A DNA stretch of 64,000 bases from positions 42,534,287 through 42,598,286 of the forward strand of contig CM037590.1 of the NCBI GenBank assembly GCA_021018995.1, written 5' to 3'. Shown piece after piece: positions 13,799 to 60,800 of the stretch. Under the pieces are notes generated by a model. It was given only the letters and a program-made list of their open reading frames with translations, did not search any database and was not told the origin of the DNA. The position numbers were made by a program, and so were the translations under genes. Numbering within the stretch: the first letter of the stretch is position 1; every line of letters starts with the position of its first letter. The stretch is from Chloranthus sessilifolius. Lineage: Eukaryota; Streptophyta; Magnoliopsida; Chloranthales; Chloranthaceae.

Positions 13799-14486
13799 CA
13801 AGGTAGTTAAGGCGGTGTGGCGAGGAGGCTTGCTACGCATGACAAGGCTATTTATTATTGTAATTTTTAAAAAAATTTATTTTATCTATTAATTAGTAGT
13901 ATTCTTTTTTTTTTAATATAATTTTTCTATAAGAAAAAAAAATAAGGAAGAAAAAAGTTTAACTACTAACGCATACTACTTTGATTCTAATATTGAGGAT
14001 TTCATATTCTAGAAATAAACAAATATCAATAAATACAAATAAAAAATGAAACATCAACAAATTTGTAACATGGTAAATATAAATAAATAAATATGAAATA
14101 TCAACACATATAGAATATTAAAAAATATGAAATATTAAGTGCACATATAGCAGTGTCGCCGACGTTGAGGTTTCGGCGACGTTGGTGTTGGTAGCTGTTG
14201 TGACGAGAGAGAATTGAGGATTTGTAATTTATAAGTTGAATATTTGACTTGTAAGTTAACTTTTGTAACTTATATATTATAAAAATGCAATAATTTATAA
14301 GTATTATACATTATTATCCAAAAAATAAAATAGCGTGCATAATGATGTAATAATGCTATTCCGTCATGGCGACGCTATAGCGTCGCTATTTAGCCATTAT
14401 GGCTATTTAGTTATATATGGCGTTTCCTATCGCCATTCGCCATGGCGAGACCATAGCGAGGCTATAGCGTAGCCTTGACAACCATG
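13799..14486. mobile_element. hAT-like MITE, CTATAGCG word family
   Basis: Termini CAAGGTAGTTAAGGC and, inverted, CATGGTTGTCAAGGC are flanked by ATGCCATG (13791-13798) and ATGTCATG (14487-14494), an 8-bp duplication with one change. Near both ends the sequence repeats GGCGACGC, CTATAGCG and GCCATGGCGA, words that pair with one another. The middle is AT-rich and non-coding. Confidence 0.75.
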
Positions 14487-14798
14487 ATGTCATGACACGT
14501 TTTGGGTGGGGACTTAAGCCCATACTAGAAACAAAGCCAGGGTGAGGACTTAAGCCCAGAACTGGACAATATTATGGCATGTGGGTCCGGTCGTCACATT
14601 GATCAAACAGTTTCTTGGTTATTGGGTCGCTACATTGAACGCACTGACCCATATATTAATAGTATCAACTGATATATACCAATGTTCATCCAAAATTGTT
14701 ACGTATCAGTTTTGGAGCTGGCCGATACATATCGAAAATCGAGATTTTTGTATCCCGTCAATCTTTATAAACTATTTACTTCCAGAGATAGGAGCACT

Positions 14799-15002
14799 CA
14801 TGGTATCAAAAATCGGGCAATACCAATACGTATAAGTCGATACGGGTTTGTATCGGTCGATACGTATCGGTTTGAGCCGAGACTTCGAGTTTTTTTTTTT
14901 AATTTAATAAAAGGGCCGATACGTATCGGTATCGACTGATTCATATCAATCCTCCATGGACCGATACCCGATACTAATACCGATACAGAGTTTGACACCT
15001 TG
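14799..15002. mobile_element. hAT-like MITE, CGATACGTATCG word family
   Basis: Termini CATGGTATCAAAAATCG and, inverted, CAAGGTGTCAAACTCTG are flanked by exact 8-bp duplications GGAGCACT (14791-14798 and 15003-15010). The 204-bp interior is almost entirely variants of CGATACGTATCGGT, TATCGGTCGATAC and GGGCCGATAC, so it can fold on itself in many registers. Related blocks occur at 39600-39760, 41515-41930, 44204-44505, 48882-49083 and 49162-49450. Confidence 0.85.
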
Positions 15003-15711
15003 GGAGCACTATCACCTCAAATGGGTGTTTGACAACATCACATAACAGTGTGGGAGGTGCCCTATAAGGTGTGTAATCTGTGAATTATTAGGGGCCTTAG
15101 GGTGAGGGCAGCCCTTAGAAATTTGTCCAAGCATAAGCTTGGAATGCACTAATTTTGGATTGGGGAAGGTCAAAATGGGGAAATGAGGTGATCCGAATTC
15201 ATCTCAGCTATCTACGAATTTCAATGTTTTAATCGAGGGTCCATACTGAAAGACTTATATAATCTGCTCTTATCAATTGTTAGATTTTTGAATAAATAAT
15301 AAGAATGTTTCTAGGGCAGCATTAAAGATCTCATCGAAAACTTATAGCAACATGCCAAACAAGGGCTTAGAGAAAAAAGAACACAGGTCTGACTGGCATA
15401 ACATCCACGACTGGATTGAAAAAAGCATATAAAAATAAATAAGTAAAATAGAGTGTGAATAATGATACCCTTTTAGCAGATCATTTTAATGGCATTAACT
15501 GCTTTTAACATTAACAACCACCATTTTTCTTTAAAAGATATCGATTGCTTTGAATCATATGATACGGATAGTGTTTTCGTTTCAAGCTTCAACAACATAG
15601 GTCTTTAGATGATGGTCTTCAAATCATATGATACACTTGATGAAACCACATGCCACATCTACCAAATAGTGACATGTGAACCAACTATTGGCACTCAGCT
15701 CTAGTTCCTAC
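15003..15711. other. Intergenic, no gene seen
   Basis: No open frame of interest and no repeat with clear ends was found. Base composition is like that of the surrounding intergenic DNA. Confidence 0.4.
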
Positions 15712-16046
15712 CATAGTGACCAAGTCGGGTTTGAAAATAAAACAGCTTGGAAAAAATTTGCTAAAATCCGGCAAAATTCTTGTAGTTCGGAAAAAAGAGG
15801 ATCAAAATTTGGGCAAAAAAAACTAATTATAAAAACATATTAATTATAAATTATAAATATTATGAATTTTGAAAAATAAAAGCAAAATTTTGAAATTTTT
15901 TGGTAAATTCGTGAAATTCACGAATAATTCTTACAATCTATGATTTTTTTTGAAAAAGTCGCAAATAATTATAAAATTATTCATTTTTTCAAAAAATTGT
16001 GATTTATCCGCATTTTTTTAAAAAAGTCGGAGAATTGGTCACTATG
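15712..16046. mobile_element. hAT-like MITE, CATAGTGACCAA family
   Basis: Perfect 12-bp termini CATAGTGACCAA and, inverted, the same, with flanks GTTCCTAC (15704-15711) and GTTCCTAT (16047-16054), seven of eight matching. The interior is AT-rich with repeated GTGAATTCACGAA-like and AAAATTTTTT words. A related decayed block without clear ends lies at about 16255-16500. Confidence 0.75.
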
Positions 16047-16502
16047 GTTCCTATTACCAAGTCATCTATATATTTTGACTTTCCAAGTGCACGCTAAAGA
16101 TTGCACAATGAAAATCGCTTTGAAGGGGTGATTTTCTTTGTTGCTCGTCAACTAGATAGCGAGCCACATTGGTTGTCAAGAAAGTTAGCATTAGGTAAGC
16201 AGCCCGAATGTAAAGAGACTTGGGCCCTATTTAGCAAAGTTGCTTCTCAAGAGCATAGCCACAAAAATCGTTGAATTTTTGAATAATTCGCAAATTTAAG
16301 GTTCTCCAACTTAATCCTGAAATATTCGCAATTTTTTTAAAAATTCATGTGTTCACAGAAATTCACGAATAATTTTAGAAATTTTCAAAAAAATTGTGAT
16401 TTTTAATATTTTAAAATTTTATAGTTTTAAATTTTTTATTTTTCTCTCCAATTTTTCCTCCAAATATTTTCCCGAACTTGCAAGATTTTGCCGGATCCTT
16501 CA

Positions 16503-16652
16503 AAGTGCTTTTGGGAAGCAACTTTGCTGAGCAAGGTCTTAGTACTCAATTCACTCTTTGAGGTGTGTACCACATGAAAGTGCTTTTGGGAAGCAACTTT
16601 GCTGAGCAAGGTCTTAGTACTCAATTCACTCTTTGAGATGTGTACCACATGA
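16503..16652 (+). repeat. Tandem duplication, two 75-bp units
   Basis: The unit beginning AAGTGCTTTTGGGAAGCAAC occurs at 16503 and again at 16578, with one or two changes over 75 bp. A shorter inverted echo lies at about 16230. It probably arose by replication slippage or unequal exchange; no function is suggested. Confidence 0.9.
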
Positions 16653-16951
16653 AATCATGTGTTCCAACTACTAGGGGCACTGATTTAAATATCAAAGTCA
16701 AATGCCATCTAAAACTAATGGCTACCATGTAAATCCAAAATGCCAATAGGTTACCTTATAGGCATGTTTGGTTGGGCTGAGACATGTTCTAATGATAGAT
16801 TGCCACCTAGACATTTTAGATTGATCACTGATGTTCACTACATGGTATAATGAAAAGCACACTTTAATGGTGTGAGATTAAAAGTCTTATCTTTGATGGT
16901 ACAAGATCATTTAAGCACCATTCTAGTGTTCAAATGTCCGTCAGGAGCCAT

Positions 16952-18749: not shown

Positions 18750-18751
18750 GA

Positions 18752-29883: not shown

Positions 29884-30212
29884 CAGGGGTTTCAATGGGC
29901 CGGATTGGCCTGCTACCTGGCTTGGCCCAGTTTAGGCTGGCTTTGGGCTCCGGTAGTAGCCCTGATTAGTAACTGGAGAGGGGAGCCTTTCAAGCCCAGC
30001 TCGACCAAACCAAGCTAAATGACAATAAATGAACAGGGTTGGCTTTGGCTAGAACCCAATTTGAGCTGGGCATGGGCTCGGGTAGTTGGGTAATCAGATC
30101 TGGACCCAGCTGAGCCAGGCCTAATTAGTACCTAGTAGGATTCGGGTTCAGTTTCTAGAGCCAGTGAAAATTTGATCATTTTAAGGCTAGATACAGTCCA
30201 TTAATACCCCTA
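29884..30212. mobile_element. hAT-like MITE, GGCTGGGC/GCCCAGC word family
   Basis: Termini CAGGGGTTTCAATGGGC and, inverted, TAGGGGTATTAATGGAC are flanked by ACAATTTC (29876-29883) and AAAGTTTC (30213-30220), six of eight matching. The interior repeats GGCTTGGCCC, GGCTGGCTTTGGGC, CAAGCCCAGCTCG and similar complementary words. Confidence 0.65.
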
Positions 30213-30402: not shown

Positions 30403-30727
30403 TAGTGCTGCAACAGAGTCGAGCTAGCTCGGCTCAGTCCGAAAATGAGAGCTTTTGCTCTCTTAAGCTCGACTAGAGAGTTAGAGTAGAGCTTTTTATT
30501 TAGAGCTCGATTGAAGTAGAGCTGAGCTAGTAAAGCTCGGGTCGGTCCAGCTCGGCTTTATTAATAATATATAATACTTTTATATGATGAAATATATTTT
30601 ATATAATTTTGAAGTTTTTTTCTTTTTCTTTAATATTTTCCCCTTATAATAAGATTCATCTAGTAGTTATTTTATAATGGATAGATATGTAATCAACATA
30701 TAATATTTGTGACATCTATTGAAGTTT

Positions 30728-30770
<43 letters not shown>

Positions 30771-31204
30771 GCAACCATTAAAGTTCTTTCTCACTCGTTT
30801 CAATAAACAATCACTAGCATGACAATTGACCAATCAACCAACACCTATACTCTTAATCAATATTTAGCACATTAAATTTAAACATTTTTTTCTTTCTAAT
30901 TGATGTTAAATTTAAAAGGAGTATAAGATTAAAAGATATTAGGGCTTTCATTTATAAATTTTATTAAATCTTTCATCTATGAAAAAAAGATATTATTTAA
31001 ATAACATTAGTAAAAAAATTTATAATAAAACTTATTTAGCTAGAGGCTTGTCTCGGCCCCACTTGAGCTCGATAGAACCGAGCTAGAGCTTAGGCTTTTT
31101 AGGCTCCAAGGGCCTAGAATCAAGTTTTAGCTCGGCTCATATAAGGTAGAGCCGAGCTAGAGCTGACCCAAGCTCGAGCTCGGCCTGACTCGGTTGCAGC
31201 CATA
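30403..31204. mobile_element. hAT-like element, AGCTCGAGCTCGG word family
   Basis: Termini TAGTGCTGCAACAGAGTC and, inverted, TATGGCTGCAACCGAGTC are flanked by TATGTACC (30395-30402) and CATGCACC (31205-31212), six of eight matching. About 150 bp at each end is packed with GAGCTCGGCTC, AGCTCGAGCT and GAGCTGAGC. The AT-rich middle holds a (CT)n microsatellite at about 30730-30770. No coding sequence. Confidence 0.75.
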
Positions 31205-34619: not shown

Positions 34620-37600
34620 GTATGTTTTTTTTTTTAAAACAAAAAATTGATTTATGTAATATCCTCTTGGTCCACATGATACCAAAAAGGGCCTTAAGTG
34701 CAACATGATACATCATTTTTCATATAATATAGAGAAAAAGAGAAAGAAGGTACTCAAGTACTGAAATGGAGTACACAAGATAGGTACACCAAGCTCATAT
34801 GGAGCTCCATGTGGTACTTCAAATCGGTAGGTTGAACAGATCATCATCACAACATTGTCTCATGTGTGTGGGGTCAAATTTGTATGTCCTATTTCCCCAC
34901 TCATTTTTTATTAGCACTAAACTCTGAGTAAATGCGCAATCGTTTTAAGTCTCTTCTCATTGCATCCCTCTAGGTCTTTATTGACCTTTCTCATCTCCTA
35001 CCTCCTTGTGCTTGTAGCATCTCAATCTTTCATACAAGGTCTATGTTTAGCCTCCAATGAACATCTTCAAATCATTTCAAATGACACTTCGTACTTTTTT
35101 CATTTATAGGTATCACTCTTACATTTTATCTTATGTACTTGTTTCAAATTTTATTGTTTTTGTCCAAATCTTCTCACTTACATGTACTCGATTCTTATCA
35201 CAAGTTGTAGAGATTGATTTTTAAAAAAAAATTCAAACTGTAATTCAATAGTCCAAATTTTAAGCTTAAAAAATATATGGTGGAAAAAAGGTAGGGTGAA
35301 CCTATGGGGGACCACCAAGGATTAAAATTTCTGGTCTCCCGCCCCGCACCTGCATGCATTGAAAGCGATAATTTGAATTTTAGTTTCAGTTTCCCAAGAA
35401 CCAAAACATTTCGACCGAAAATTTCAAAAACATAGAGACAGCTGTGACGTGAATAAGATATTAGCACTATGGACCAGCCAAGGTACTCATATATATATAT
35501 ATATAGAGAGAGAGAGAATAAAAATGAAGTCTTCGATGTAATAAATATTTATAGGAATAAAGGCTCTTTTTTTTTCTTTGTTAAATTAGGCTAATCCCAA
35601 GCTTACGCTTAGACTAATCTCTAAGGGATGCCCTCACCCCCCACGGTATAACGAGTATTTCATGATTAACGACTCTTTTACTACCCCAGATAAGATATCC
35701 TCTTTAACCTCTTGTTAGCGTAATACATGCGGCCATTCACGTGGAGATATGTCATGCGACGCCACATGGCTTAATAAGGAAAATTATAAACGGTGGATAG
35801 ATTTGATGCAGACAAAGTGAAGGCGGCTGACATGTTGTGATGTAACTGGCTGCACTAATTACTAATTGAGCACGACCTCCATTAATTGAGCTTCACCATA
35901 CTTACAGCCAATTGCATCGTGCCATATCAGCCGCCTGCACTTTGTCTGCATAAAATCTGTCCACCATGTCCGCCTAATAATTGCTTGCGAGGATTAAATC
36001 ATACAAGAGCTTGTGAGGAGAGTCGTCTAGTATTTATTAATGGTTTTACTTTTACCACCGTTTGCTGTTGGGATCATTCTAACTGTCAAGAGGTCCTATC
36101 TAGCCATATTTGTTTGGAGAGGAGGAGGTTTAGGTAACATCGGTGGGGTGCCCCATCTTATAGTGCAATTGATGCATTTTTAATTATTCATTGATCAGAA
36201 CCGTCCAAATAATGCCTTCATCTACTATAGGCTATAAGCCACAGTTCCATTGACTAACCCATACTTGTGGATGATCAATAAAATTAGGGTCAATGGTCTA
36301 TGTAAATATACATTCATCAGATGGTTGGGATCATCTAATCAGTGTGAGCTTTTGACATGGCACATTGAAGATGGGGGCATTGATCAAACTGCCCTGATCA
36401 ATAAGCACAGGAATCGTTTGATGGGTACGCTTCTGAGATAAAAGCGAGCGAGCTCTGCTGACCACTTGTACACAGATGGGGTCCTGACCAACCCAACGTT
36501 ACTCTATGTGGACCACACTTTCTTAAGCAAACCAAGTAGTCCATCTAGAGCGTATAATTGGCATATGCCTAAGAATCAACTCTATAAGAGGCTTCAAACC
36601 ATCTGATTGATGCATTGAATAAGAGGATTCAAACCATTGGATATACTCTGTGAGCCGACTTCAATTAAATATATGAGCTGCAACTTTAATGGCTTGGATT
36701 GCTTATAGTATTTGCCACATGGCCTAAAAGTAGGTCAGGCATGCCTCCTTGGTCCGAGCTAAAAAGATAGTTTTGTGCCGGATTTAGAAATGCCGAATAG
36801 AAACTTATCTCCCGAACTTTTATATTAATTCTTTCATGATTCCATTTCAAAAAATTCTTTCATAATTCGAAATCGATTTTGTCTGTAGCAGGAGTTCGCA
36901 ATTGATGAACAAAGCAAGAACCTTTCTAGAGCTGTTCTTCGCGATATGGTTCGTGATGGGCAACGTCTGGGTGTTTGATTCTCGCCAAGGATACTTTGAC
37001 CGAGCTCCAAAACTTCATATGCTCTGCATTTCTCTGCTTGCTTGGAATGCCATCAGCTACTCCTTTCCCTTCCTTCTGTTTGTGTTGCTCTGTTGCTGTG
37101 TGCCGCTGATCAACAGCATGCTCGGATACAACATGAACTTAGGCTCTATCAATCGAGGTGCGACCGATGACCAGATTTCGCAGCTACCCAGCTGGAGATT
37201 CAAAGAGGTTGATGTTAACGTAGAGTCAGGAAATGGTGCTGAATGCATTTCAGTCCTTCCCACTGAAAACTCGGTAAGTTTTCCAATTCGTTTTTTGCAA
37301 AATTCCTTTCTCCTTTATCGGTATCCACTATCCTGCCCACTTCTGCAAATAGGGCTGCATATGGGTTGGGTCAGGTTGAGTCAGGGTTAACCTGATTACT
37401 TCTAGGACGACCGACACTCGACCCGAACCAATTGTTTCAGACCTCAACCTGACACGACCTGATTAACAAAAACTCTGGTCAAGTCTGGTCAGACTGGGAA
37501 AGGTTGGATTAGGATAAATGGAATTGGTTGGTCATTGTTTGGGCCGAGCCCGAGCCCCGAACCCAGCCCGTTTAATAAATGGGTCGAGATTTCATATCGG

Positions 37601-38002
37601 ACCCAACCCAACGTGTCAGGATTTTAGACCCAAACCTGACCCATCCTTAGTCGGTTGTCTCGGATGAACCCAACCATTTGCAGCCGACTGTAAAAGCCTT
37701 GCTTGGTCATTTTACAAAACTACCGTTTTCCCCTCAATTGTATTTGTGTATTAGAATTTAGAAGAGACATGCATTCTCCTTCCATGAATACAATTTGATC
37801 AGTTATAAAAACATAAGGGGTTCTCTTTTCTTATCTTTAAGAGTTGGTTTGACAGGAATGTTGTATTTGCCTAGCCAAATACAGAGACCGGGAAGAGGTA
37901 AGGCAGTTGCCATGTTCACATCTGTTTCATCTAAAATGTGTGGATCAATGGCTGAGAATCATTTCTTGTTGTCCCCTCTGCAAACAAGAACTAGAGAAAT
38001 GA
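34117..38002 (+). CDS. RING-H2 membrane E3 ubiquitin-protein ligase, three exons, 343 aa
   Basis: Coding exons are 34117-34619, 36892-37273 and 37856-38002. The junctions are AG/GTATGT and TAGCAG/G (phase 2) and TCG/GTAAGT and GACAG/GAA (phase 0), and together they give 343 codons plus TGA. The start is the first ATG after a CT-rich leader. Residues about 90-165 and 175-235 hold four hydrophobic segments: WIVLEFLILVLQIGAITVTL, the segment around GYNLGSILSLPLLYW, the one around FFAIWFVMGNVWVF, and the long one ending LLFVLLCCCVPLI. The last exon is the RING-H2 finger: CCICLAKY, then LPCSHLFHLKC, then CCPLC, that is C-x2-C, C-x-H-x2-H-x2-C, C-x2-C. This layout matches the plant At4g11680/At1g12760-type family, which transfers ubiquitin from E2 to substrates at membranes. 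Substrate unknown. Everything needed for function looks intact. Confidence 0.93.
34620..36891 (+). other. Intron 1 of the RING-H2 gene
   Basis: 2.27 kb, GTATGT to TGTAGCAG. It contains a TA/GA microsatellite near 35490-35520, a fold-back MITE at 35789-35967, and a diffuse patch of CGACCGAAAATTTC words near 35410. No open frame of interest. Confidence 0.85.
35789..35967. mobile_element. Fold-back MITE in intron 1
   Basis: Arms 35789-35855 and 35905-35967 pair over about 63 bases (GGTGGATAGATTTGATGCAG against its diverged inverse) around a 50-base AT-rich loop. It shares the outer GGTGGAYA-ATTT word with the hairpin at 32563-32715. Confidence 0.75.
36892..37273 (+). CDS. RING-H2 E3 ligase, exon 2
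   Basis: Encodes two more membrane segments and the cytosolic linker with GATDDQISQLPSWRFKE. The DDxIxQLPxxxF pattern just before the RING is a known mark of this ligase subfamily. The exon ends exactly on a Ser codon. Confidence 0.92.
37351..37687. mobile_element. hAT-like MITE in intron 2, GGTTGGGTC word family
   Basis: Termini AGGGCTGCATATGGGTTGGG and, inverted, TCGGCTGCAAATGGTTGGG are flanked by CTGCAAAT (37343-37350) and CTGTAAAA (37688-37695), six of eight matching. The interior repeats GACCCAACC, GGGTCGAG, CAACCTGAC and their complements. It begins 77 bp after the splice donor. Confidence 0.7.
37856..38002 (+). CDS. RING-H2 E3 ligase, exon 3 (RING finger)
   Basis: 48 codons plus TGA, beginning ECCICLAKYRDREEVRQL and ending CPLCKQELEK. 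All eight zinc ligands are present. The short tail after the last cysteine pair is normal for the family. Confidence 0.95.
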   Translation, partial: ECCICLAKYRDREEVRQLPCSHLFHLKCVDQWLRIISCCPLCKQELEK

Positions 38003-42200: not shown

Positions 42201-43430
42201 AACTTTTGATGCCAAAACATCATATAACCCAAGCCATCTTCTACATTAATTTTAGTACGTATATTCTTTTTGATAGGTAAGCTGGGCTCAAATCTGCGAC
42301 CCGGAGGTTGCAATATTGTCAACCTCCTATTGTACTACAGGCTCAAGCCCAAGTATTCACTCTCATCTATCGAAGAAATTTTCCATTTATTCAGATGCTT
42401 TAAATTGATCATAAATTTCACATTATAATATTCAAATCTCTAAAATGATCACAATTTTGATCTTTTTAAACCTTAATAATCAAATACTTGAAAATGTTCA
42501 TTTACCACCACATCATGTGTACCTGATGTGTCCCACGTCATCTATATGAATGCGCATCAGTAACAGAATGATTAAATTTTTTCCAATAAGCCATGTAGTT
42601 TGACATCTACAAGAAGCACTGAAGCAGGCAAGAATGGGTACTTTTGCACACAAACAACTGGGTCAATCAATCAATCCACGTATCTGGCAATAAATATATG
42701 GCTTTTATCATGCATTACAGATAAAAAGAAAACAAGTATACATAGTGCCAGTGTATTAAAACTCTACGATTCGGCTTGGAACTCAGGCGAATTGACGCGG
42801 CTCGACCAAGTTTCGAGCCAACTCGTCAAACAACCAAGGATCCAAATTTCGGCCGAAATGACTGAAATTATCGGTTTCAGTCCCCACCGAAACCGAAACA
42901 ATAATTTATATTTTTGGTTATTTTCGGCTATATTGAAGTTTTCGGCCAAAATTTCGGTTTCGGTCCCCTCCAAAACCAAAATGAAAACCGAAATTTTGAT
43001 CCTTGCAAACAACTCGATATGGGAAGAGGCGGGGGTTTTATCCATTTTAAAGGGCAAATAAGTAAAAGGCTGGTTTATATAAAACCCAGCTCTCGACAAC
43101 GCTATTCATTGACCCTAAATCCTCTCTGCTAAAGACTTGCGAAAAAATGACCCTTGCGAAAAAACCCCAAGTCTTGCGAAGAAGACGAAGATCCAGTGAG
43201 TAAATGATCTCTCTCTCTCTCTCTCTCACAGATCTGAAGAATCCAAAGCATATCAACCATTGATGTTATTTTTTAATGGCTGGTATTAAAATGATAACCC
43301 ACAAATTGGGTGCTTTGTACCAGCTAATATGTTTGATTATTTGGCTGTAACATATTACAATAATCGACTACCAGTCTACCACATGCACAATTTAGATATA
43401 TCTGAGACTTACAACAACAGTAAAGCTTAC

Positions 43431-43491: not shown

Positions 43492-46400
43492 CATTTTAAA
43501 TATATTTATTAAATAATTTGAGTCAGACCGAGTTGAATTAGAACGAGTTTCTGAGTTAACTCTACTCGACTGATTTCCGAGTCGAATTTTCGTGTTTTAA
43601 AACCATGTAGCGCTATTAGAAGCAACAGTGATAACTGGGCCTAATTTCACTTGTGGTTTTCAACATCTACATGGTAACTAAATGACAATGTATAATGTGT
43701 ACGAACTTTATGAATGCATAACCTCCAACAGAATTTTAGAGGACAATTTCTAGGCTCTGCTCTTACTCGCAACAGCACATATTAAATAAGAATTTCATAC
43801 AGAGACATTTCACCCTAAGGCGATATCAATTTTGATGAACTAATAAGACCAGCTCATGCCACAATTATAGAAATACTTTGTTCATAGTAGCTGAGAGCGG
43901 ATCCATCCGATTTGTTTCATGAGGAAAGATATCAATGAGCTGGAATTCAGAAATTGCAATTTTCAAATCAACTTTTCAATCCATGGATATGTTCTTATTA
44001 TTGCAATTTTCAAATCAACTTTTCAATCCATTGATATGTTTATATTTATTGACTAAGGTGGCCTAATACACATATTTTGGGTAGCACTGTGTGAAGGTTT
44101 ACGACCACATTCTGACAGGTTACAAAACATTGAAGATGTCAGTCACCAAATTCAAGAATGCTTATTTTCTGTGACCCGCCAAAATTAGTGGCTCACATAT
44201 ACCCAAGGTGTCAAACTCGGTATCGGGTATCTGTCCATCTTGGACCGATAAGTATCGGCCGATGCAGATACTGTATCCGTCGATATTTTATTTTTATTTT
44301 GAAAAAAAAAACATAAAAGATATAAAAATTTGGTAGTATCGCTCGGTATTGGCTGATACCAAGACAGTATCAGCCGAGACTGACCAGTATTGGTCCCTTA
44401 TTGATACACATACCGATAACATCCCAATACCTGTATCCGATGGTATCGGTAACTGTTCTCGACGAAACCGATACGTATCGGTATCGGCCGAGTTTTTATA
44501 CCGTGCATAATGTTTACAAAAGACAAAAGTACTTCTGTCTATATTCTTCGACATTAGTAACTTTGACGTTTGTCTTTTTTGGCAGAAGGCAAATAGCATG
44601 TAAGCCTTTCTCAAGTTTTTACTATTTAGTCTCTATCAACATAAACTAAGAGAACAATGAATCTACAAACAACAGAAGCAGGTAGCAATCCTCTAGAAAG
44701 AAGTATACATGCTAACTGAATGCTCAACCACTTGAATTAGATAAGATAAACTTTTAGAGGCCAATCAATATGATTTACTCACAAGCAAGCGGCAAATTTC
44801 ATGCTCAATTTTTGAAAAGGATGTCTCTAAAGCTTCTACTCGCCCCGTTGCATGACAGCAAATGCATGGTTCACTAATCATAAACGTAACACTTGGACGG
44901 ACCTGTGCAATTGAACAATAATTGGTAAGAGTGGAGGTATATAACCTGCAGTACCACATATCAAGTCTCAATATGAAACATATGGTTATGGAGCTATACT
45001 TTCATATACAATAAGAAGTCATTCAGAAACTGATGAAAGATTTAAACTTTATTCTTTGTTTATATGTTATCGATGTTTTACTAGTTTAGAGGTAATTTAG
45101 ACATGATTATTTTTTAGGATTTTTTTTCCTTGAGACTCTCACTCTCTCCCTTTTGTTTTTTTCTTCTCACTTTACTGTATACTTTCTCATGGTAGCAGAG
45201 CATCAAGGTTTAATTAGTTTCTTTCCTTTTCTTCTCTCCTATTTGTTTGGGGCTTAAATTTCTTCCATTTTTTTCTTATAGCTTTAAGGGTTGAACAAAC
45301 CTTGACCCCCTACATATCAAAGATATTTGTTCAGTTGCACGCTGATGTGTGCAGCCATATGTTCAGCATTATTCACACAATGGAGGGGTCATCCAAGGCG
45401 ATCTTTTTGGGTAAAGCAATGAAAATTGACCCTAGTTCTGTGATACTAGGTTCTTCATAAGAAAACCCAATGTTCCAAAAAAAGTGGGTGGGTCCAAAAT
45501 TTTGAGATATCTTACACAGCAGATTTCCTGTCACAGGCCATCACATGAGACCACAGCCATGGGAGCCAAGATTATACCCAATTTTCCAATTCCTATTGTT
45601 ATCTGCTGAGGGGTCTACGTTCAACTTTTATCAGCTTGTTGAATATTAAAATATGATGTTCCCCAAGCAGATTTATTAGCAGACTCACGAAGTAATCCCT
45701 CTGATGGTGTTGTGGTGAAGAGAATTATTCCCATTGTTGGGTTTGATATTGCAGGATTTTTGGATAATTTTGAATAGGCGATTTTAGCTAAAATACTGGA
45801 TCTAATTACTTAAGGTGATCATGTGCTACTTTTGAAGAAGACGTATTCAGCTATATGGATGAATCTGGCTTCAGCAATTCTAGTGAAGAATATTATATTC
45901 TCCCAAGATAATTTCTGTTAACCACATGGGATTGAAGAGTGTGAGTTTGAACAGTTTCTTGCAAATGACAGCGTCTCGTGTTCCCTGCCTTATTTATTTG
46001 AAGAGGAGAAGCATGTGCTATGTTGCCTCAGTCACCTCTGGATATTGCCAAAATGAACTTCTTTAGAAGCTGAAACCAGAAATGATGGTGATGATAGGGG
46101 AGAGTGAGTTTCGCCTTGCCTTTGAGGGACATTTGTACTGGCTTCGGCCTTTGCATTCGCTTTGTTTTTACTCTTTACTTCTTGGGCTTGTTTTGCTCTT
46201 TTTTGTTTTTAGTTTTTGTTCACCTGTTTTCTTTTTTGGCTAAGCTTCTCAATGAGCATGAACCCTTCTAGCTCTTTTTTCATTAATGAAATTTTAATTT
46301 TAATTTCATAAACAATAAATAAATAACCAGTGATGATGATGAGGTTCTGCCCGAAGCAGAACGGGTTAGCAATGCGGGAATCTCATGGTACTAGGACAAA

Positions 46401-48788: not shown

Positions 48789-48838
<50 letters not shown>

Positions 48839-51800
48839 GGAGAGAGAGCATTGGGTATCTGCACCCCCCACAATGTGGAACCATGGGTCAAAATACCGGG
48901 TATCGGATACGTATCGTCCGAGCTCAAAACCGATACGTATCGGAATAGTAAAATACCAGACGATACATTGAATGTATCGTCCGGGTATATGCATACAAAA
49001 TAGCGATACGGTACAATGAATGTACCGTATCGTCCCAGTCCAAAACCGATACGTATCGGTATCGGACGAAATTTTGACCCATGTGTGGAACGCTAGGGAA
49101 GGGTGATTATGTCCACGTGGCACCCCAAACACAAGTTTGGGGTGCCACGTGGACATAGGAACATGGGTCAAAATCTCAGAAATCCGGTACATATCGGTCT
49201 GCCCTCAAACCGATACATATCGTTTGTATCGTCCGATACATTGAATGTATCGCCAATACAATGTTCAATGTATCAGATGATACATACTATATTTTTTCTA
49301 AGAAAAAAAACTCAAAAAAATTCAAATTATCGAACGATACATTGAAATTATCGTCCAATACGAATGATAGGAGTTGATACATTGCAATGTATCGTACCAG
49401 AGATCCCCTAAAACGATACGTATCAGTATCGTCCAATATTTTGACCTATGCATAGGAAGGAGTATTAATGAACATTCAAAAAAAATATGATCACCGTGAG
49501 ATCAACAGTGGTCGATGGTTAAAAAATGAACGTTGATACGAAAGACATTTCACTGTTCATTTCACACAATTGATTGCTAAATAGGGACCCTTTCCCAGCG
49601 TACTTGGCTGGGGAAGGGTACCCTTTTACCATATACACACGCAAATTTACACTATTGTATAGCAATACTAATTTCAACCAATGCATATTAAGATAACTTA
49701 CCCTTTTTCTTGTTATTTCCATCAATCCATGCCTAGATAATTCAGAAATTCTCACCATTGATCGGTCTCTCTCGACAGCCTTCTTAATTTCTTCATAGAC
49801 TAACCTTTTGTTAGCTGAAACAGATATGAACCAAAACATAACTGGTTAGCAAAGGTTTTTATACAATTTTAATATATGCAGGGAGCATGAATTTCACAAG
49901 TAGCGCCCATTTCTTTAACAATATCGTAACAGAAAAAGATACGAGATTGGAAGTATACACTCAGACAATAATTTTTATAAGAAGCTAGGTACAGATTGCT
50001 CTACACCATGGTCACTTAAATCCATGCTTCATTTTTTCCATCATGAATGCAATATAGAAGCATAACTTTCATTTATAATACCATACAGTTATTTGTTTAT
50101 GCATTCATCCTAATGTTTGACTCCCTAGAGCTTGCTGCTCCTAGTTTTTTTCAGAAGGTATCGGGGCCTGACGTGCAAGGCTATTGGGCTCTTCAGGGCC
50201 TGCCAATTAAAAAAATTCAACAGCTGCCATTAAGAGTGAAATGGGGGGACACGAGATCCATCCAAGGTCGCAGCTTTGTCCTAGAGGCTTTAAGAACGGT
50301 CCTAGTGCTTGGGGATTCTCCATGTTTGATTTTTAATGAGGACAAATGTCCCTCCAGGACCATGTTTTAACATGCATAGAAAGAGACATTTGCTGACATT
50401 TTTTGCTCAATGAGGCTTGCAAAAATCATCTTTATGTGCTTGGCTGAAGGATGGGAAATAGGCATTCAAAATCATTGTGAGGAGGAATTCAAGGCTGTTT
50501 TCCGGACACTTTTATTTTTGCTTACCAAGCCCCAGGGAGCTTGCTCAATGGGCACCATGGGTATGGTCAAATGTGCCTCTTTGCCCCTTTTTGAAGCAAT
50601 TGCAAGGGCATTTTCTAATCTATATTTAAAATAATGTCTGTGTCCTAGAAGGAAATGACATCCTTTGAAGCCAAAAACGATGCTCGGAACACCTAACATG
50701 GAAAGGAAGGGGACAAAAGTCTCCTTCCCTATAAAAACAAAAAAACAAAAAAAAAATAGTAGGGCCTAGAAAGGCCATATTTTTTATTTTCCACGAGCCC
50801 TAGGGAGCTTAGTCAGACGTAGGGGTGCCAATAAGCCCGCCCCAATTTAGGGAACTTGCTCAATGGGCACCATGGGTATGGTCAAATGTGGAAGCAATTG
50901 CAAGGAGATTTTTCTAATGTATATTTAAAATAATGTCTGTGACCTAGAAGGAAATGACATCCTCTGAAGCCAAAACCGATGATCAGAACACCTAATGGGG
51001 AAAGGAATGGGACGGAAGTCTCCTTCTCTATAAACAAAAATTAGTAAGGCCCAGAAATGCCATAATTTTTTATTTTCCACGAGCCCTAGGGAGCCTACTC
51101 AGATGTAGGGGTGTCAATAAGCCAGGCCCAATTCAGGCCGACCTGATTAACTAAACAGGGGGTCTGGACAGCCCACGTTTTGGGTTTAGGGCCCTTATAT
51201 AGGGCATAAATGTGCAGGTCTCAAACCCAACCTGAAATCAACCTGAAATAAACTGAACTCGATTTTCTGAACTCTGCCAGACCCGGTTTGGACCGAAATC
51301 GGCTCAATATTGATCAGGCCAGGTTGCCACAGCACCTATGGCCCGTTTAGTAATCAGACTGGAATTAATTGAAAACTCTACTGGTGTATGACCAAACGTG
51401 CCTCTGCAATCTCTCGTTCTAATCATTTCTGGAGGGTCTAGCACAATGGTAGGTTGACAATATTACAACCTCTCGGTTGCAGGTTCGAGCCCAGCTTACC
51501 GATCAAAAAAAATAAAAAGCATTTCTGGAGGAGTTTTCACTGATGTACCTTCAAAAACAAGTACCCTACATGCCCTAGAATGAAAGAAAACATCCATAAA
51601 AATCAAAACCAACAATCAGAGCACCCAGCAGAGGAGACAAAAATCTCCTTCCCTATAAAACAGGGCCTATGGAGCTCATTACGCGTCCTAGGGGCTTTCT
51701 GACAAAAGAGAGGGGGAGAGTCCCGGAGCCTTTGACGTGCCCAAGACACCACCAGGAAGTCCTAAAAAGTTTGCATGTAAACTTAATAGTCTTAAGGGAG

Positions 51801-54800
51801 TTGCTCCTAGGGTGGGTCTCAATTTTGATTATCATGTTCTCAAGTCATGAAGATGTCAAAAAATAATGGGGAGTCTACACACCCTCAAGTACATGAATTA
51901 AAATTTTGGTTGAAATTGAAAGAAAAAAAAGGTAATCAAATAAGTGGCGAATTTTTTAATATATTGGTCAAGTGTCAAAGCTATGTAACCTATCCACTAC
52001 TTTAACAAATACTTTATCTTCATATTTTAAAATGAACAGATATGATGAATGTATACGTTTTCATAAACTTCTTTACTTACATTCATCGACCATATCAATA
52101 AAATCTACCACAATAATGCCACCAATATCTCTGAGCCGTAACTCTCGTGCAATCTGGAAAAAAAAAAGTTGCCACAATTTCAGTTAACTTTTCGATAACC
52201 AATATTATAAATACTAAACAAATATGCAATATAGGCCAGATATTCTGATGAAATTTCTAAAGCAAAAATTGTTACATTCGACAAAATGGTCAGTCCAAAA
52301 GCATCACGAGAATGTCAAGCATGTTGAGAATGACCTGCTGATAGCAATAAAAGTGCAAAGAGAAAAAAAAAACACTAATATACTACAAATTTCAATAGCA
52401 CTAATAGGCACACACATATATAACACATTATGATTATCACTAGCAAGGAGCGAAAATCTCGACAACTATCTCCTAGTATAAAGCTTGCGGCCAGAACAAT
52501 TTGGAATACCCATAAAAACAATTTGGAATACTAATATACCATGCAAATAGAAAAAGGAAAACTAATAATCGTTACAGGGGCATGGTAACAATTATGCAGA
52601 GCTTCCAAATTTTCTAATGAGAAAACCAACCCTCGATACTTTAAATTACGGCTAAAGAGATGAAAACCCACTTTGAAACTCCTATTTCACAATGGCAAAA
52701 ACACAGAGAAATAGTCCCTGATTTAGAATATTGCAAATGCAGATTTTCTGCAACAAATCTCTGTAACACAGGTTAACCTCCTCCAAATTTACTGGGCAAG
52801 TACTAGAATTCTGCCCATTATTTCTGTAAGTATAATATATTAAAACAGCACTATCTTCTTGCACTGTCGATTATGTATAACAGTATTTACTGGTCAATCC
52901 AGCGATCTGATAGCCAAATAACAATGAACACATTTAACTGAGAATCAACTCTTCTTTTTCAGCCAACATACTATTACATCCTCCGAGTCCATTCTAATAC
53001 TAACACATTTCCACTCCCCAGCAGAACGAGCTCCACCTCCCTTAAATCTCACCTTTTACAACTAAACATCCTAACTCAAAAGATTGCCCTCCATTATCCG
53101 AACCCTGATTGGCGTTTACATTTTTAGGTACGACCAACCTAAAGATCGCCTCATACATGTCCATAAAGAGCTCTTCTCCTGCCCATCTTTCTTGCTAGAA
53201 TCAAACTTTATCCCCTGTCCCACTTGGAAGTTGATACATCTTTGGAACAAGAAGTTAATCTTGTGCACAAATTTCCACCAACCTGACCCACAGGAAGCAC
53301 ACGACACCCTAACATCCCATGATTTCCCCAACCATACTTGCATGAGAAACACTGCACCCAAAAAGCCTCCCTTTCCTCTACGAGCCTTAGTTATTTCCCC
53401 AACAAAGCAATCATATTATTACGTGACTTAATCTCCAATCCACCATTCAAAATCAAGATCTTCACCACCACAACTAACCACGTGCATCGTATTCTTCCCA
53501 CCCAAAGAAAATTCCTCTGAATGCTTTCCAAACTTTTCACAATATTTATCGGGCACTCAAAACTTGACATGAAATATATAAGCAAATTTATTTGGGTGGC
53601 CTTTATCATTGTCACTCTTCCCCTCTTTCAAACAAAGGGCCCCTTTCCACCCAGCAAGTTTTTTGTCCAAACTTCCATCATCAGCACAGACTTTATCAAC
53701 TTACCAATGCAGAGAGGCAACCCAAGACACTAAGATGGAAGTTGGTCCCAACAACAACCCAGAAACCTAGCTAACAAGACTAGCTCCTCAAACACCATCT
53801 GCATCCCAAACAATCTTGTCTACTCCATATTTAAATTGTGACCAAACACTACGTCATAAGCGTCTAATTACAGTCTTAACACTATAAAGCGCCTCTTCTG
53901 ATGCCTCACACAAGATGAGGATATCATCAACATACTAAAGGCGAGACACACTGATGCGGTACAAAATGCCAAACCTTAAATGATGCGAGCTGGGATTAAC
54001 CATAGATTAAATTGATTAATGGAAATATTTGAAATTATCCCAAACACATAAATAATTCAATGAATTTAATTAAAACAATTAAATTAATTATAGGTAGCGT
54101 TTGCATGCATTAAGTTTCCTGATCTAGAAAAACTGATCCGATGAAGGATTCGAGTTTCGATCTAGTTTAGGACATCAAACGACAATTATGGTGTCGTCTC
54201 TTAACTCCTCAAAGGTTTGGGAAAACGAAGGCTCAAGGGATTAAGTTAATCAAAAGGGATGGATAAAAAGATTTAAACTAACAATATTTTTTGGATTTTG
54301 GCATTTAATAAATCAAAGGAGAATATTACCAGATAATAAATAAAGAAAATGATAGAATAAGAGGATAGAGGTCAAAGGCTTCACACCAAGGATTCTAAGG
54401 CTTCTCACCAAGGCTGTACGTCGGCTTCACACCAAGTCGCACGAGAAATGAAGAATCACTCCTCAGGTTGTGAAAGAATCGCTCTTTTGGGTGAAAACTC
54501 TTCACAAGTCTTCTAGGGTTTGCGCAAAGCAAGCTCTCTAATTTTCATTCAATGATCAACTCTCACATTACATTGTTTAAAGACCTAATATACCTAGTGA
54601 CAAATTTCGCAAAATGGGGGTCAAGCAAAAATTTCGGGAAAATTTTGGTTTTCGGTAATTTTTTTTTAAATATTAAAAAAATAATAATATTATTTTATAT
54701 ATATATATTAATCCCCGAAACTTTCCGGAAATTTTTCCGAAAGGTATCACAATTAATCCGAAATGTACCGAAAGGACCCCCCACCGAAAAATTCCCGAAA

Positions 54801-57800
54801 TGAAATTTGTCACTATGCTTATATAGGAGGCCTCACAAAAAAGAAAACCCTAAACCAAATAAACTAAAAAAAAAAAGACAAGTTTTCCCTTAAAAACCAT
54901 TTTTCATATTTTGGTGGAGTTCACCTTTGCGAAAAATAGATCGATCGACGCCATGCTTCGATCGATCAGTATATATATATATATATAAGACTTATAGAAT
55001 TCTCGGGTCAGAATCGATCGATCGAAATTGTACTCGATCGATCGATTTACATATATATAAATCGCCTTAAGTTCTATTCACATTCGATCGATCAAAAACT
55101 ACCTTCGATCAATTGACTACGAAACATAACTTCGCCAAAATTTAAATTCCCACTGGACGCAATCGATTGATCGAGGATTGGGGTCAATCGATCAAATGAG
55201 TGAATTTTCAATCCTTCGATTTGAGTTGTTTTTCTTTCGTTTCTTCCAATTCTTTAATTCTGACTTCCCTTCTGCTTCTTCCGACGCTAGGGACCTGTTG
55301 CGGCCCAACTCAATAGCCCCTGTTACAAATCTGCTAAACGCCTCTCCATCATCTCAAACAAGAATTAAGACAATGGTTCTTGTCTCAAACCTCTCAAGCT
55401 TTTGAAAAATCCCGTGGAAGAACCATTAACTAGAACTGAGAACCACACTATGCACCTCATTAACCATTTCTTCCATCTCTCACCAAAGCCAAGTCCCCCC
55501 ATCACATAATCAAGGAAAGACTAGTCCACTCGATTATAGGCCTTTTTCTGCATTTACCATACAAGCAGCGTCGCTTCTATAGCTTTATAACACGAACCAA
55601 TACATTCTTATGCGAACACTGCCCATTCAGGATCTGTCTCCCCTCAATGAAAGCACTCTGACTTAAAGAAACAATGGTATCCATTAGTTGTTTTAGCCAA
55701 TTCGCCAACACCTTACCTACAACTTTATACAAGCTACCTAAAAGGCTTATTGACTTCTTTGGAATCAAAACAATGAAACGCCTTATCCGTTCGATTAAAC
55801 CGGCGATACTTTCCCTCCAGGAGACCAAATGGGGCTCTTGCGACAATCGGAAAGTTGCTTCAATACTACCCGGAAAAGACTGGGAATGGACTGGTGTCGA
55901 TTCGGTCGAAGCGTCTGGCAGCGTTTTGGTGGCTTGGAAACCGTCGATTTTCGTGAAGATGGATGAAGAAGTGGGGCTATTCTCCGCCCCCGTCGTACTC
56001 TGGTGCAGAAACTCTGGGAAGCAGTCGATCTTCTCTAGTATATACGGCCCCGTGAACCACTCCCTACGCGGCGATTTTTGGGAGGAATTGCACACGGTCA
56101 CTGCGAGGTGGGACTACCCGATCTGTATGGGAGGGGACTTTAATGTGGTTAGATGGGCCCATGAAAAACAGGGTAGACCCCCGGACGCCACAATGATGGT
56201 GCACTTCAACACTTGGATTTCAGACTGGGCCCTGGAAGATGTACCGCTAATCGGATCTCGCTTCACTTGGTCGAATCTTCATGAACAACCCCCCTTCAGC
56301 AAATTGGATCGCTTTTTATGCAATGCCGAATGGATGGAGATGTTCCCGGCCGCGAGGTTAGAATGTCTTGCAAGGACCACTTCCGATCATAGGCCAGCGC
56401 TGCTGACGTGCAAGGCCAGGGCTAATGGGCCAAGCCCGTTTCGGTTTGAAAATATGTGGCTGTTGGATGATCGGTTCCACACTGCCGTTTCGGTATCGTG
56501 GTGGCGCGAGCAGATCTATCGCGGAACTGCTGCTTACAGAATAATATTGAAGCTTAACTGGGTAAAAAAGAAAATTATTGAATGGAACAGAGACGTTTCC
56601 GGGAATGTGCAGCACAATATGGAAGCCAGCCTACTACGGCTGAGGGAGTTGGATGACGTGGAAGAGCACAGGGCCCTCACCCCTTCTGAACGTGAGGATC
56701 GGAGCCATGCAAAGTTGAGTTTCAACTCCCTTGCAAGAGCTGAAGGGGTCGCGTGGAACCAAAAGGCGAAAATTCGCTGGCTAAAAGAAGGTGACCGAAA
56801 CACTAAGTATTTTCACGCCATAGCGAACGCGAGAAGCAAAAGAAACTTCTTAAGCTCGGTGACTGTCGAGGGTGTGACCTCCAGCAGTCACGAGCAGATT
56901 CACGAACAGGTCGTTAACTTTTATACGAAACTATTTGCGGATGAAGGGGGTACTAGGCCTGAGTTAGATGGTGTGCCCTTCAGCTCTATTACGGCCGAGG
57001 GCAGGGCCAACATTGAGCAGCCATTCCGGGAAGAGGAGGACTGGCAAGCCATTAAGAAAGGGGGTAGGAACAAGTCCCCCGGCCCCGACGGTTTTACCTT
57101 TGAATTCTTTCGGACTTTCTGGTCGGTCATGAAGGATGAGCTGATGGAGTTTTTTCACGAGTTCCAAGATAAGGCCTTTCTTGGTCGCAGCATCAATTCT
57201 ACTTTCATCACCTTAATTCCGAAAACTGATGGGGCGCAGGACCTCACTAAATTCCGTCCGATTTGCCTGATCAATAGCTTATATAAGATCCTTGCTAAGG
57301 CGCTGGCAAATAGGCTTAGCCCATTGATGGGGAAGCTGATCTCCGACTCACAAGGGGCATTTGTGAAGGATCGACAGCTGGTGGATCAGGTAGCGGTGGC
57401 ACATGAGATTATCCATTCCGCACATTTTGACCGGCTTCCGGCTGCACTTTGGAAGGTCGACATGGAGAAGGCATATGATCGCATCAGCTGGGCCGGTCTC
57501 GACTATATGCTCCACAGATTTGGCTTTGGTACTAAATGGCGCAAATGGATGCGGGGTTGTTACGCTACACCTTGGTTTTCTGTATTGATCAACGGTACCC
57601 CGGCCGGTTACTTCAAAAGCTCGCGCGGTATACGCCAAGGGGGCCCTCTCTCCCCCTTTTTATACAACTTCATGGGTGAAGCCCTTGCGGGTTTAGTTGC
57701 GCGTGCGACCCAGCTTAACTTAACCTTGGGAATCAGGGTGGGGAGCTATAGCCGTCACATTGCCATCCTGCAATATGCAGACGATGTTATTCTGTTTGGT

Positions 57801-60800
57801 AAGGCTGAGGTGGAGGAGTTCAGAAATATGGCGGGGGTGTTTGCTGTCTTTGAAGCCGTGTCGGGACAGCATCTCAACGTTCGCAAGTCCAAGGTCATTG
57901 GCATTGGGATCGAGAACACCACCCTCCGTGATCTAGCACGAACTGTCAACTGCAGTACCTAGGATCTGCCCCCCAAATACCTTGGCCTACCCTTGGGCCT
58001 GCGTAAACCTACGACTACTGAGTGGGAATAAGTGATCCATTGGTTCCAGCAGAGGTTGTCTACCTGGCATGGGAAATTCCTCAGCAGTGGTGGTCGTCTT
58101 ACTCTACTCAAGGCGGTACTCTCGAGTCTCCCGATCTTTTACCTGTCCATGTTCAGATGCCCTGCCGCCATCTTACACCGGATTGAGTAAATTCAGCGTA
58201 ATTTCCTTTGGGAAGGTGCGGGCGGGGAGCGAAAATACCATCTCATCAACTGGGACACCTACCAATTACCAATGAACTGTGGTGGGCTGGGGATACGCAG
58301 TGTAAAGTGGACCAACATCGCGCTTCTCGGCAAGTGGCTCTGGCGGGCTGGAGAGGTTGTTGAAGCTGATAGCCTATGGCGGAAGGTGCTGATAGACAAA
58401 TATGGACGGTCAGATTTTAATTGGGGAGTCAACGTTGCAGTTAACAAAGCTACCTCTAATTGGTGGAAGAGTATTGTCGGGACTTGGAACCACTTCTGTA
58501 AGGGAATTCGATTCAGCTGGGGTTGTGGGACCCGAATACGGTTCTGGGATGATCAATGGGTGAATGAGGGACAACTCAGAGATATGTTCCACCAGGTGTA
58601 CTCCCTAACCCGGAATCCGTTGGGTACTATTGCTGATTTCCTGATGCAATCCAATGGGACCATAGTTTGGGAAGTGGTAACTCGGAGGAAACTTCACATT
58701 GACGAAGGGGAAGAGTTTGTGACACTCCTCCAACTGCTATACAGGCTGAAACCAAATCCTCGCAACCTAGATTTGCGGAGATGGGCTCCTAGTATTAATG
58801 GTCGTTTCAGCGTTAAATCTTATTACCGGAAGTTGACGCGTTGCCCACTTACCAGATTTCAAGGTGCGACGCTTTGGAAGGCCACAATTCCGCTAAAGAT
58901 TAAGTTCTTTGCTTGGTCTTTATTCAAAGATAGAGTACTCACTTTGGACACTCTCATCCGTAGAGGCAAAAATATTACAAACTGCTGTGCCATGTGTTCT
59001 AAGGCCGAGGAATCGGTTGCTCATTTGTTTCTGCACTGTGAGGTAGCAGCTGAGATTTGGGGTATAATCCTAAAGCTTTTCCGGACTGATTGGGTCGTCA
59101 GTGCTACAATTTATGAACATTACCTTTCCTGGCATAATGCGGATTTGGACACAACCTCGTTCTTCAAGGTCATCTGGAGCATATGGAAAGAGAGGAATTG
59201 GAGAATTTTTGAACATAAGAAGAAAATGGTCGGATGCACTGTAAAGGCAGTCAAAGACCTTACCAACCTTTGGTTGTTCGACGGTACTGAGATGACCTTA
59301 GAGCCTTGGGACCCAGGGTAATGCTGCTGTGACAATCGATGTTATGTGGGTGATATGTTGGTGCCCTGTTGGCTTTGTTGTTTTTTCTATGTTGGCTAGC
59401 AGCCTTTGATCCTGACGCTACTTTGTATCGATATTCCCAGCACCTTTCTGGCTTTTTCTAATACAACACAATTTACCAATCAAAAAGAAAAAACAATGAA
59501 AATGGAATTAATACACGTTCCGATTTTGCTTCGAGTGAAAAAAAACTCATCAAACAATTTCCTAACTTCACCCTTTAGCATTTCACGGAAATGATTGTAA
59601 ACAGGACCGGCCATGAGGCCCATCAGGTGGTCGCCTCGGAGCCCTGAAATTTTTGCGGCCCCTTATTCTTGTAAGTCGTTATGGGCTATTAGTTAATATA
59701 ATTTTCAATGTAAAAAATTGTAAATCAAGTCAATGGGTTAGTTGGTTAAGCTACATTTGTTATTTTACTTTTTACCCAATAGGTTATGGGTTCAACTCTT
59801 CCCAGGCCCCATATTTGCATTTCTTTTATGGGTCGGATCGGATCTCGGCCGGGTCGGTACTGGTCATGGGTCAAATCATTTGCCTCACTAGGTCAGGCCG
59901 GCCTTATGTATTGACCCAGTGGATTCTCTGACCTCATTTTGATCAGCCCGAATTTGTTTGACCAGATCCTTTATATAAAATTTTCCTTATTAAATGACTC
60001 ATCTTAAAACAACGATCTCGTGCTCGTTACAGCTCAATTTTTCGCAAATGACCTATCAATTTGGATCTACTTGATGAGAGCTATCCAATGAACCTATTTA
60101 TGGAAACTTTTGAGACTGTTAAAGTGCTAAAAAATGGTTGGAAAGATTCAATGACAGTTAAACTGCTAAAAATGCCACAGTGTTATTAGTTGGGATTGGG
60201 TTACTCGATCTGTGGGATATGTTCTACGATTTAGCTTTTCTCTTTTTGTGTTTTATTTTTCCTTAATATATATTTTCGTTAACTTATTAGTTGTATTTTC
60301 AAACTAGAGGAAGTAGAATGGAATATGCAGATATTCGTAATCTAGGAGCAATCATGGTGACAAATTTCATTTTCAACAATATTTCGGTATTTCGGGAAAA
60401 ATTTAAAAAGTTTCGAGACAATTTTGGGGAGTACAAAAAATAAAAAATTATTTATTATGCAAAAAACGACTAAAATTAAAAGAAAATTCATTAAATTTGA
60501 TAAAATTTCGTTAATTTCGCCAAAATTAATGAAATTTGACAATTTCAAAGAAATCATCAAAATTTCGCTGAAAGTTACACCCAACTTCTGTTTCGGTAAA
60601 TTTTGGAAAATTTCGAAGAAATTTGTCACTATGGGAAAAATGAGTATTATATTATTTGTTAAAAAAAAAATTGTGGCGAATTTATTTTTGGATTAATATG
60701 AAGGAGGGCCCCATTTTAGGAATTCGCCTTGGACCCCTAAAATCTCAGGTCGGCCCTGATTGTAAAAGGCCAAGGTGAAACCATCCGATCCAAGAGCCCT

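Follow-up and report, generated by a model that had tools for sequence, protein, structure and literature searches.

Miniature hAT-type elements in a 64-kb window of Chloranthus sessilifolius carry word repeats that resemble subterminal transposase-binding sites

Why should several inverted-repeat families lying in the same stretch of DNA each be packed with short words, repeated together with their complements and different from one family to the next? The question is raised by 64,000 nucleotides of Chloranthus sessilifolius (GenBank assembly GCA_021018995.1, contig CM037590.1, positions 42,534,287 to 42,598,286 of the forward strand), a stretch hereafter called the window, which by its sequence appears to be plant nuclear DNA. 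The original prediction listed eight such elements with terminal inverted repeats (TIRs) and 8-bp target site duplications (TSDs), assigned them to hAT transposases, and ascribed their interiors either to a generating process common to them, for example template switching, or to selection on structure, in a class for which it knew no name. The analysis reported here supports the assignment to non-autonomous hAT miniature inverted-repeat transposable elements (MITEs), on the basis of 8-bp TSDs together with hAT-type termini. That these MITEs carry subterminal transposase-binding repeats is, in our judgement, highly probable, and a name for the class does exist: the subterminal repeats (STRs) of hAT elements.

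The word-bearing set consists of 14 elements (13 insertions), all from this window and 171-802 bp long, whose status as non-coding MITEs was judged from element size alone. Families were drawn by hand; within the 64 kb the CGATAC family has four copies and the CATAGTGAC family three. The elements are given below in window positions on the forward strand, together with a larger element that lacks words.

10266..10628, hAT MITE; word AACCGAA/TTCGGTT; TIR TAGGGGTGCAAATTT / TACGGGTGCAGATTT; TSD AGTATATA/GGTATATA (7/8); insertion event shared with 12641..12926
12641..12926, hAT MITE; second copy of the 10266 insertion, through an inverted segmental duplication; TSD TATATACC, exact
13799..14486, hAT MITE of 688 bp; words GGCGA/TAGCG with a CGC core; TSD ATGCCATG/ATGTCATG (7/8)
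14799..15002, hAT MITE of the CGATACGTATCG family; TSD GGAGCACT, exact
15712..16046, hAT MITE; ends CATAGTGACCAA; TSD GTTCCTAC/GTTCCTAT (7/8); word-poor (6-mer z 3.2)
29884..30212, hAT MITE; words CTGG/TGGGC; CpG observed/expected 0.25; TSD ACAATTTC/AAAGTTTC (6/8); departs from the TCGG rule
30403..31204, hAT MITE of 802 bp, the longest with words; word AGCTCG; TSD TATGTACC/CATGCACC (6/8)
37351..37687, hAT MITE; words GACCCA/CCTGAC and nine TCGG sites; left end at 37350 or 37351; TSD CTGCAAAT/CTGTAAAA (6/8)
42835..43005, hAT MITE; word TTTCGG/CCGAAA; TSD CAAACAAC, exact
44204..44505, decayed copy of the CGATACGTATCG family, absent from the original list; TIR 9/14; TSD 4/8 only; 6-mer z 16.1
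48882..49083, hAT MITE of the CGATACGTATCG family; TIR 13/14; TSD TGTGGAAC, exact
49162..49450, hAT MITE of the CGATACGTATCG family, an independent insertion; TSD CATAGGAA, exact
54593..54817, hAT MITE; ends CCTAGTGACAAATTT / CATAGTGACAAATTT; word CCGAAA; TSD CTAATATA/CTTATATA (7/8)
60353..60633, hAT MITE; ends CAT(G/A)GTGACAAATTT (14/15); TSD GGAGCAAT/GGAAAAAT (6/8); word-poor (z 3.4); nested in 59602..60758
59602..60758, larger hAT-like element; ends paired as CAGGACCGGCC / CAGGGCCGACC; TSD ATTGTAAA, exact; no word array

The eight elements first listed were tested at their proposed ends and at every end pair within 12 bp, and in all eight the proposed pair obtained the top score. Each is flanked by an 8-bp match, exact in four of them (GGAGCACT, CAAACAAC, TGTGGAAC and CATAGGAA), 7/8 in 13799-14486 and 6/8 in 29884, 30403 and 37351, while the TIRs agree at 10-13 of 14 bases. 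All eight elements are thus borne out; the count of five exact octamers is right for these four, but the fifth octamer, ATTGTAAA, flanks the unlisted element 59602-60758. TIRs of hAT elements typically begin with YANNG. Scanning for YANNG ends, a TIR and a near-exact 8-bp TSD, without any use of words, returned 11 elements, versus 1, 1, 0, 0, 0, 3, 1, 2, 0 and 1 (mean 0.9) in ten local Markov shuffles. The 11 comprise seven of the eight listed elements (37351 was missed) plus 10266-10628, 12641-12926, 15712-16046 and 60353-60633, and both their ends are YANNG by design of the scan; the rule is broken at both ends of 37351 and at the left end of 54593, and several families begin with TA. Short TIRs beginning with CA are given for hAT elements in a table in PMC4423477. 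With the end rule dropped, a looser scan returned 16 matches, some of them clearly spurious, versus 0-4 in eight shuffles, and contributed 54593-54817; the decayed copy 44204-44505 was found through terminus matching.

Across 13 elements the mean identity of the flanks is 0.88 when 8 bp are compared, and no other length from 2 to 12 exceeds 0.36; this register is to be read with the caveat that element ends were partly picked by the 8-bp match. TSDs of MULE or CACTA type were not found, the mean identity at their lengths of 9 and 3 bp being 0.22 and 0.15, respectively, with the ends set by the 8-bp match. Exact TSDs flank five of the 13, and 44204, outside that set, matches at 4/8. The 8-bp register is consistent across elements, and the hAT assignment stands on it and on the 11 scan matches versus 0-3 in shuffles. 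A hAT transposase, with its BED finger, RNase H-like core and hAT dimerisation region, would not fit into elements of this size, and a Pfam scan of 10 of the 59 window open reading frames (ORFs) of at least 100 amino acids gave no hAT match. The families had been regarded as unrelated, which holds only in part: in 25 of the 28 family pairs the ends match at fewer than 8 of 10 positions past the first five, but the ends of the CGATAC, TTTCGG and AACCGA families agree at 8-9 of those 10 (three of 28 pairs; 2 of 1000 trials with letter-shuffled ends). The termini of 42835 (CAAGGATCAAAATTT) and 48882 (CATGGGTCAAAATTT) differ at 2 of 15 positions, though their words differ.

Repetition of 6-mers, counted over both strands, is above that of dinucleotide shuffles in every one of 13 elements, with z from 3.2 to 26.2, and reaches 16.1 in 44204-44505; 184 background windows of 300 bp have a median z of 0.3 and a 95th percentile of 4.5, and five elements (15712, 60353, 29884, 30403 and 13799; z 3.2-4.1) lie under that percentile and do not stand out on this measure by itself. 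Word-rich, self-pairing sequence is common to several families, as had been claimed. The words do recur with their complements, but "tens of times" was generous, since hand-chosen words match 7-20 times per element. Their position is informative. In 30403-31204 none of the 11 TCGG and 13 AGCTCG sites is farther than 150 bp from an end, and the intervening ~500 bp hold none; in 13799-14486, 10 of 13 GGCGA/TAGCG sites lie within that distance, one at 151 bp and two near the centre. The words of these two long elements keep mainly to the subterminal zones and are not, as the notion of word-built interiors implied, spread through the interior. Pooled over the 14 elements, TCGG occurs inside at 28.6 per kb (1-25 bp from the end), 33.6 (26-75 bp), 14.1 (76-125 bp), 19.7 (126-175 bp) and 2.5 (beyond 175 bp, a bin to which three elements contribute 803 bp, 30403 and the TCGG-poor 13799 supplying almost all of it), and outside at 1.4 (1-50 bp) and 2.6 (51-150 bp). 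The words stop at the element ends. In 12 of the 14 elements, most of which are too short to possess a centre, repeated words cover more of the end zones than of the centre; in short elements the two end zones meet, which makes them look built of words throughout. G+C is lower centrally than at the ends in 13 of 14 elements and equal in 29884.

All 136 4-mers were compared between eight hand-drawn families and the rest of the window, 12641 being omitted as a copy of 10266. The most widely enriched is TCGG/CCGA, in six of the eight families (next best, three) and 5.0-fold overall. Random placements of equal lengths gave at most four families sharing a 4-mer, in 2 of 1000; independent random words gave sharing by six in 10 of 10000, a figure that became 13 of 10000 when CpG 4-mers were permuted as a separate class. 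The five elements found without using words, two of them copies of one insertion, hold 33 TCGG where 6.0 are expected; without 12641 the figure is 24 in 1,204 bp. ACGG is unenriched (10 in 4,814 bp of elements versus 160 in the other 59,186 bp). The words of 13799-14486 carry CGC (17 versus 6.8 expected), and it is a guess that the CTGG/TGGGC words of 29884-30212 arose by CpG loss from a CGG word. The CpG observed/expected ratio is 1.30 in the pooled 14 elements and 0.66 in the rest of the window, an unusual value for DNA in which methylation and CpG loss are expected; the element 29884-30212 shows the opposite (0.25). String and topic searches, which covered the plant transposon literature in part, did not find the exact words in print; among the matches listed in a literature string search with four sequences, only the shortest string was matched, seemingly in unrelated contexts. 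An IMG/VR search for copies returned none for CCGATACGTATCGGTATCG and none for AGCCGAGCTCGAGCTCGGCTCG. Matches to TAGGGGTGTCAATGGG on seven contigs were rejected, sequence beyond the match being unlike in six and one contig stopping at the match.

Short sites beside the TIRs are known from other transposons. Maize Ac/Ds elements are likewise hAT: their TIRs are short, numerous small sites in either orientation occupy roughly the outermost 200-250 bp at each end, and the core is ACG/TCG, A/TCGG; unlike in Ac/Ds, it is TCGG and not ACGG that is enriched here, the words are longer and often palindromic (CGATACGTATCG), and the 11-bp TIR of Ac differs from the ends found here. CACTA (En/Spm) elements also have complex subterminal repeat arrays, which are bound by a transposition protein, but they have a 3-bp target duplication and CACTA/CACTG ends, neither of which is matched here. 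nDart/Dart resembles the present case in that a non-autonomous element has ends and subterminal sequence similar to those of an autonomous partner, the partner being known there. Hermes, Tol2, Tag1 and Herves have multiple short transposase sites beside their TIRs, including the quasi-palindrome of STR1 and STR2 in Hermes, but with other motifs (AAGT/AAGC, TGACCC/AAACCC, CG/AATTCAT). The Ac transposase sites are reported as ACG, TCG and A/TCGG in both orientations within the Ac ends; AAACGG hexamers in the 200-bp Ac ends bind the transposase cooperatively, three 5′-end copies being required (PMC3260210). According to PMC8097297, hAT-derived CGG-binding proteins, mostly animal, usually prefer CGG or CGC, and the motifs of four hAT proteins match subterminal regions of their elements. 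Two BED domains of Hermes bind a quasi-palindrome of two STRs cooperatively, about 220 bp per end are needed in cells, and most hAT transposons bear STRs near their TIRs, according to PMC10368747; further hAT motifs are listed in PMC3143072. MITEs of hAT type are said to be prevalent in nearly all of 207 plant genomes (PMC12550479).

On balance, the words have the properties of hAT transposase sites: they are short and repeated, occur without regard to orientation, are often palindromic and crowd towards the ends. They are most likely docking sites for a borrowed transposase, a role suggested by their position, their motif and the published biochemistry of hAT proteins. In the model that we propose, a related autonomous hAT element would supply the transposase, which would bind the MITE, cut at the tips of the TIRs and insert the element with duplication of 8 bp of target. 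The words would be the STRs that recruit a BED-finger transposase to a zone of about 150 bp inside each end. Because such sites would be usable in either orientation, words would accumulate alongside their complements, and palindromic words would be paired half-sites, so that self-complementarity and hairpin potential would be mostly a consequence of this arrangement. Internal deletion would join the two end zones and leave short elements word-built throughout. The words would differ between families because their transposases differ, six of the eight families retaining the TCGG core and one a CGC.

Several observations weigh against this reading, besides the long hairpin arms and the folding surplus considered below. 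End crowding rests on the pooled profile and the two long elements, because in circular-shift comparisons of end and centre coverage only two of 14 elements are singly significant (30403, p=0.033; 37351, p=0.002); the order is reversed in two others (29884 and 54593), and other repeated 6-mers cover 16% of the centre of 30403. The TCGG core is missing from two of the eight families (13799 and 29884). Nor does every element with an 8-bp TSD show the architecture: 59602-60758 has such a TSD and no array, with 6-mer z of 1.1 and 0.7 in its two parts and seven TCGG in 876 bp. According to PMC3260210, some Ds1 elements move without the hexamer and many Ds-like elements that carry it are immobile. 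The CGG/CGC preference described in PMC8097297 belongs to a particular domesticated or related hAT group that is not from plants, and some proteins bind AT-rich motifs. As for Hermes, PMC10368747 gives about 70% activity when the inner putative sites of the left end are mutated, and right-end STRs without a bound BED domain.

Three other explanations were weighed against subterminal binding sites. That the arrays are ordinary satellites or simple repeats flanked by octamers by chance is extremely improbable: word repetition is locally high and some weak words are AT-rich, but TCGG density drops more than tenfold at the element border, matches to ends, TIR and TSD number 11 versus a shuffle mean of 0.9, and of 31 Tandem Repeats Finder rows only 3 lie within elements that bear words. 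The reading is refuted because the borders are sharp at the TSDs. Of the two outcomes that the original prediction named as refuting it, arrays that run on past the ends are excluded by these borders, and a lack of consistent duplications by the 8-bp TSDs. Another alternative is a shared generating process, in which template switching or slippage during gap repair after excision would build and rebuild the arrays in each copy. It could account for palindromes of the CGATAC family whose arms exceed the word length (12 bp at 49004-49032 and 11 bp at 48959-48981; arms of 9 to 12 bp occur in three of the four copies, the longest in 14799 being 7), and for word-rich stretches of about 90-95 bp that were inserted or lost between copies, namely about 90 bp with extra words between 14799 and 44204 and about 95 bp present in 49162 and lacking in 48882. 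The interiors themselves, however, are inherited and not regenerated in the copies compared. An inverted segmental duplication (arms 10071-11484 and 11826-13161, with a spacer of ~340 bp) holds one hAT MITE insertion in both arms; two independent insertions were considered and rejected, as the flanks are homologous too. The two element copies are 90.2% identical over 286 aligned columns, with five gaps (77 gap columns), and the flanks 91.2% over 1006 columns; the element being about as similar as its flanks, the array drifts like other DNA. Elements 48882 and 49162 are independent insertions, because their duplications differ, and are nevertheless collinear over both ends (73% over 99 bp and 70% over 128 bp), while 14799, reversed, is collinear with 44204 along most of the shorter element, apart from the extra stretch. 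In the copies compared, the interiors are thus largely collinear, apart from those word-rich stretches. Sharing of TCGG between families with different words would also be unpredicted under such a process, which we consider unlikely.

Selection for secondary structure, whereby arrays would be kept since their single strands or transcripts fold, as precursors of small RNAs or during excision, seems to us equally improbable as the main cause. Thirteen elements (30403 was omitted for its length) have DNA folding energies 2.8 to 9.5 standard deviations (s.d.) below dinucleotide shuffles, but TIR pairing supplies part of this value, and the right-flank controls are not all flat: z ranges from 0.2 to -11.1, with five of 13 at -2.3 or beyond and the sixth lowest at -2.1. 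Four of the five low flanks contain a neighbouring element, hairpin or array, whole or in part; the flank of 14799 (-3.1) contains none known. When 16-bp blocks were permuted and flipped inside each half of nine of the 14 elements, 15 of 18 native halves folded somewhat better than the permuted ones (mean z about -1.0), and 13 of 18 lay within 2 s.d.; the remaining five, four of them in the CGATAC family, lay at z -2 or beyond. The surplus is thus small once words are kept and their order and orientation randomised. Adjacent TCGG sites, taken up to a distance of 40 bp, show every combination of orientations (19 minus-minus, 17 plus-minus, 15 plus-plus and 13 minus-plus), and an Rfam scan of the window gave no family at gathering score. 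Words and TIRs account for most of the folding, so that selection on structure need not be invoked for the bulk of the signal; what surplus is left is modest and lies mainly in the CGATACGTATCG family, and there may be a smaller structural role beyond words and TIRs. A perfect hairpin at 49111-49154 (GTCCACGTGGCACCCCAAAC; 20-bp arms, 4-nt loop) lies between two CGATACGTATCG elements and ends within the left duplication of the second.

Other repeats accompany the MITEs. A long interspersed nuclear element (LINE) retrotransposon occupies 55662-59318, with Exo_endo_phos and RVT_1 in one 766-amino-acid frame and zf-RVT downstream in another; the Pfam scan of 10 ORFs also gave fragments of RVT_1 (21086-21586) and RVT_3 (189-581). 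Pieces of a direct duplication at 5337-6144 and 8860-9671, spaced by ~3.5 kb, are 84-91% identical. Further repeats are a tandem duplication of 75 bp at 16502-16651 (99%), an 8179/9688 pair (89%) and, at 7144-7405, repeats of 131 bp. The direct duplication at 50611-51137, with a spacing of ~290 bp, carries a hAT-like terminus, TAGGGGTG(C/T)CAATAAGCC, at 50820 and 51106, for which no matching right end was found; nor was a convincing TIR or TSD found for these two termini, for a possible copy ending at 41913 or for a CATAGTGAC terminus at 13241. The array at 54936-55195 is dense in GATCGATC/TCGATCGA words, with GATCGA 20 times (z about 22-23); hAT ends and an 8-bp duplication were sought there and none was recognisable.

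How the families are related to one another can be put forward only tentatively, with somewhat less than even confidence: at least six hAT MITE families may have re-dressed one ancestral BED-finger core, TCGG, into words of their own, some keeping near-identical termini, as CAAGGATCAAAATTT and CATGGGTCAAAATTT do. If this is true, a MITE would be matched to its own transposase by the word, acting as an address, and not by the TIR, the divergence of words would record the separation of transposases and their parasites, and BED-finger specificity would be predictable from the words of any genome. A seemingly nameless class becomes a testable statement about a known one, namely that the words of hAT MITEs mark likely transposase sites, and the core of such words is recoverable through an unbiased k-mer scan. 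Should a TCGG core with family-specific flanks hold genome-wide, the interiors of MITEs would predict transposase specificity and link orphan MITEs to their partners.

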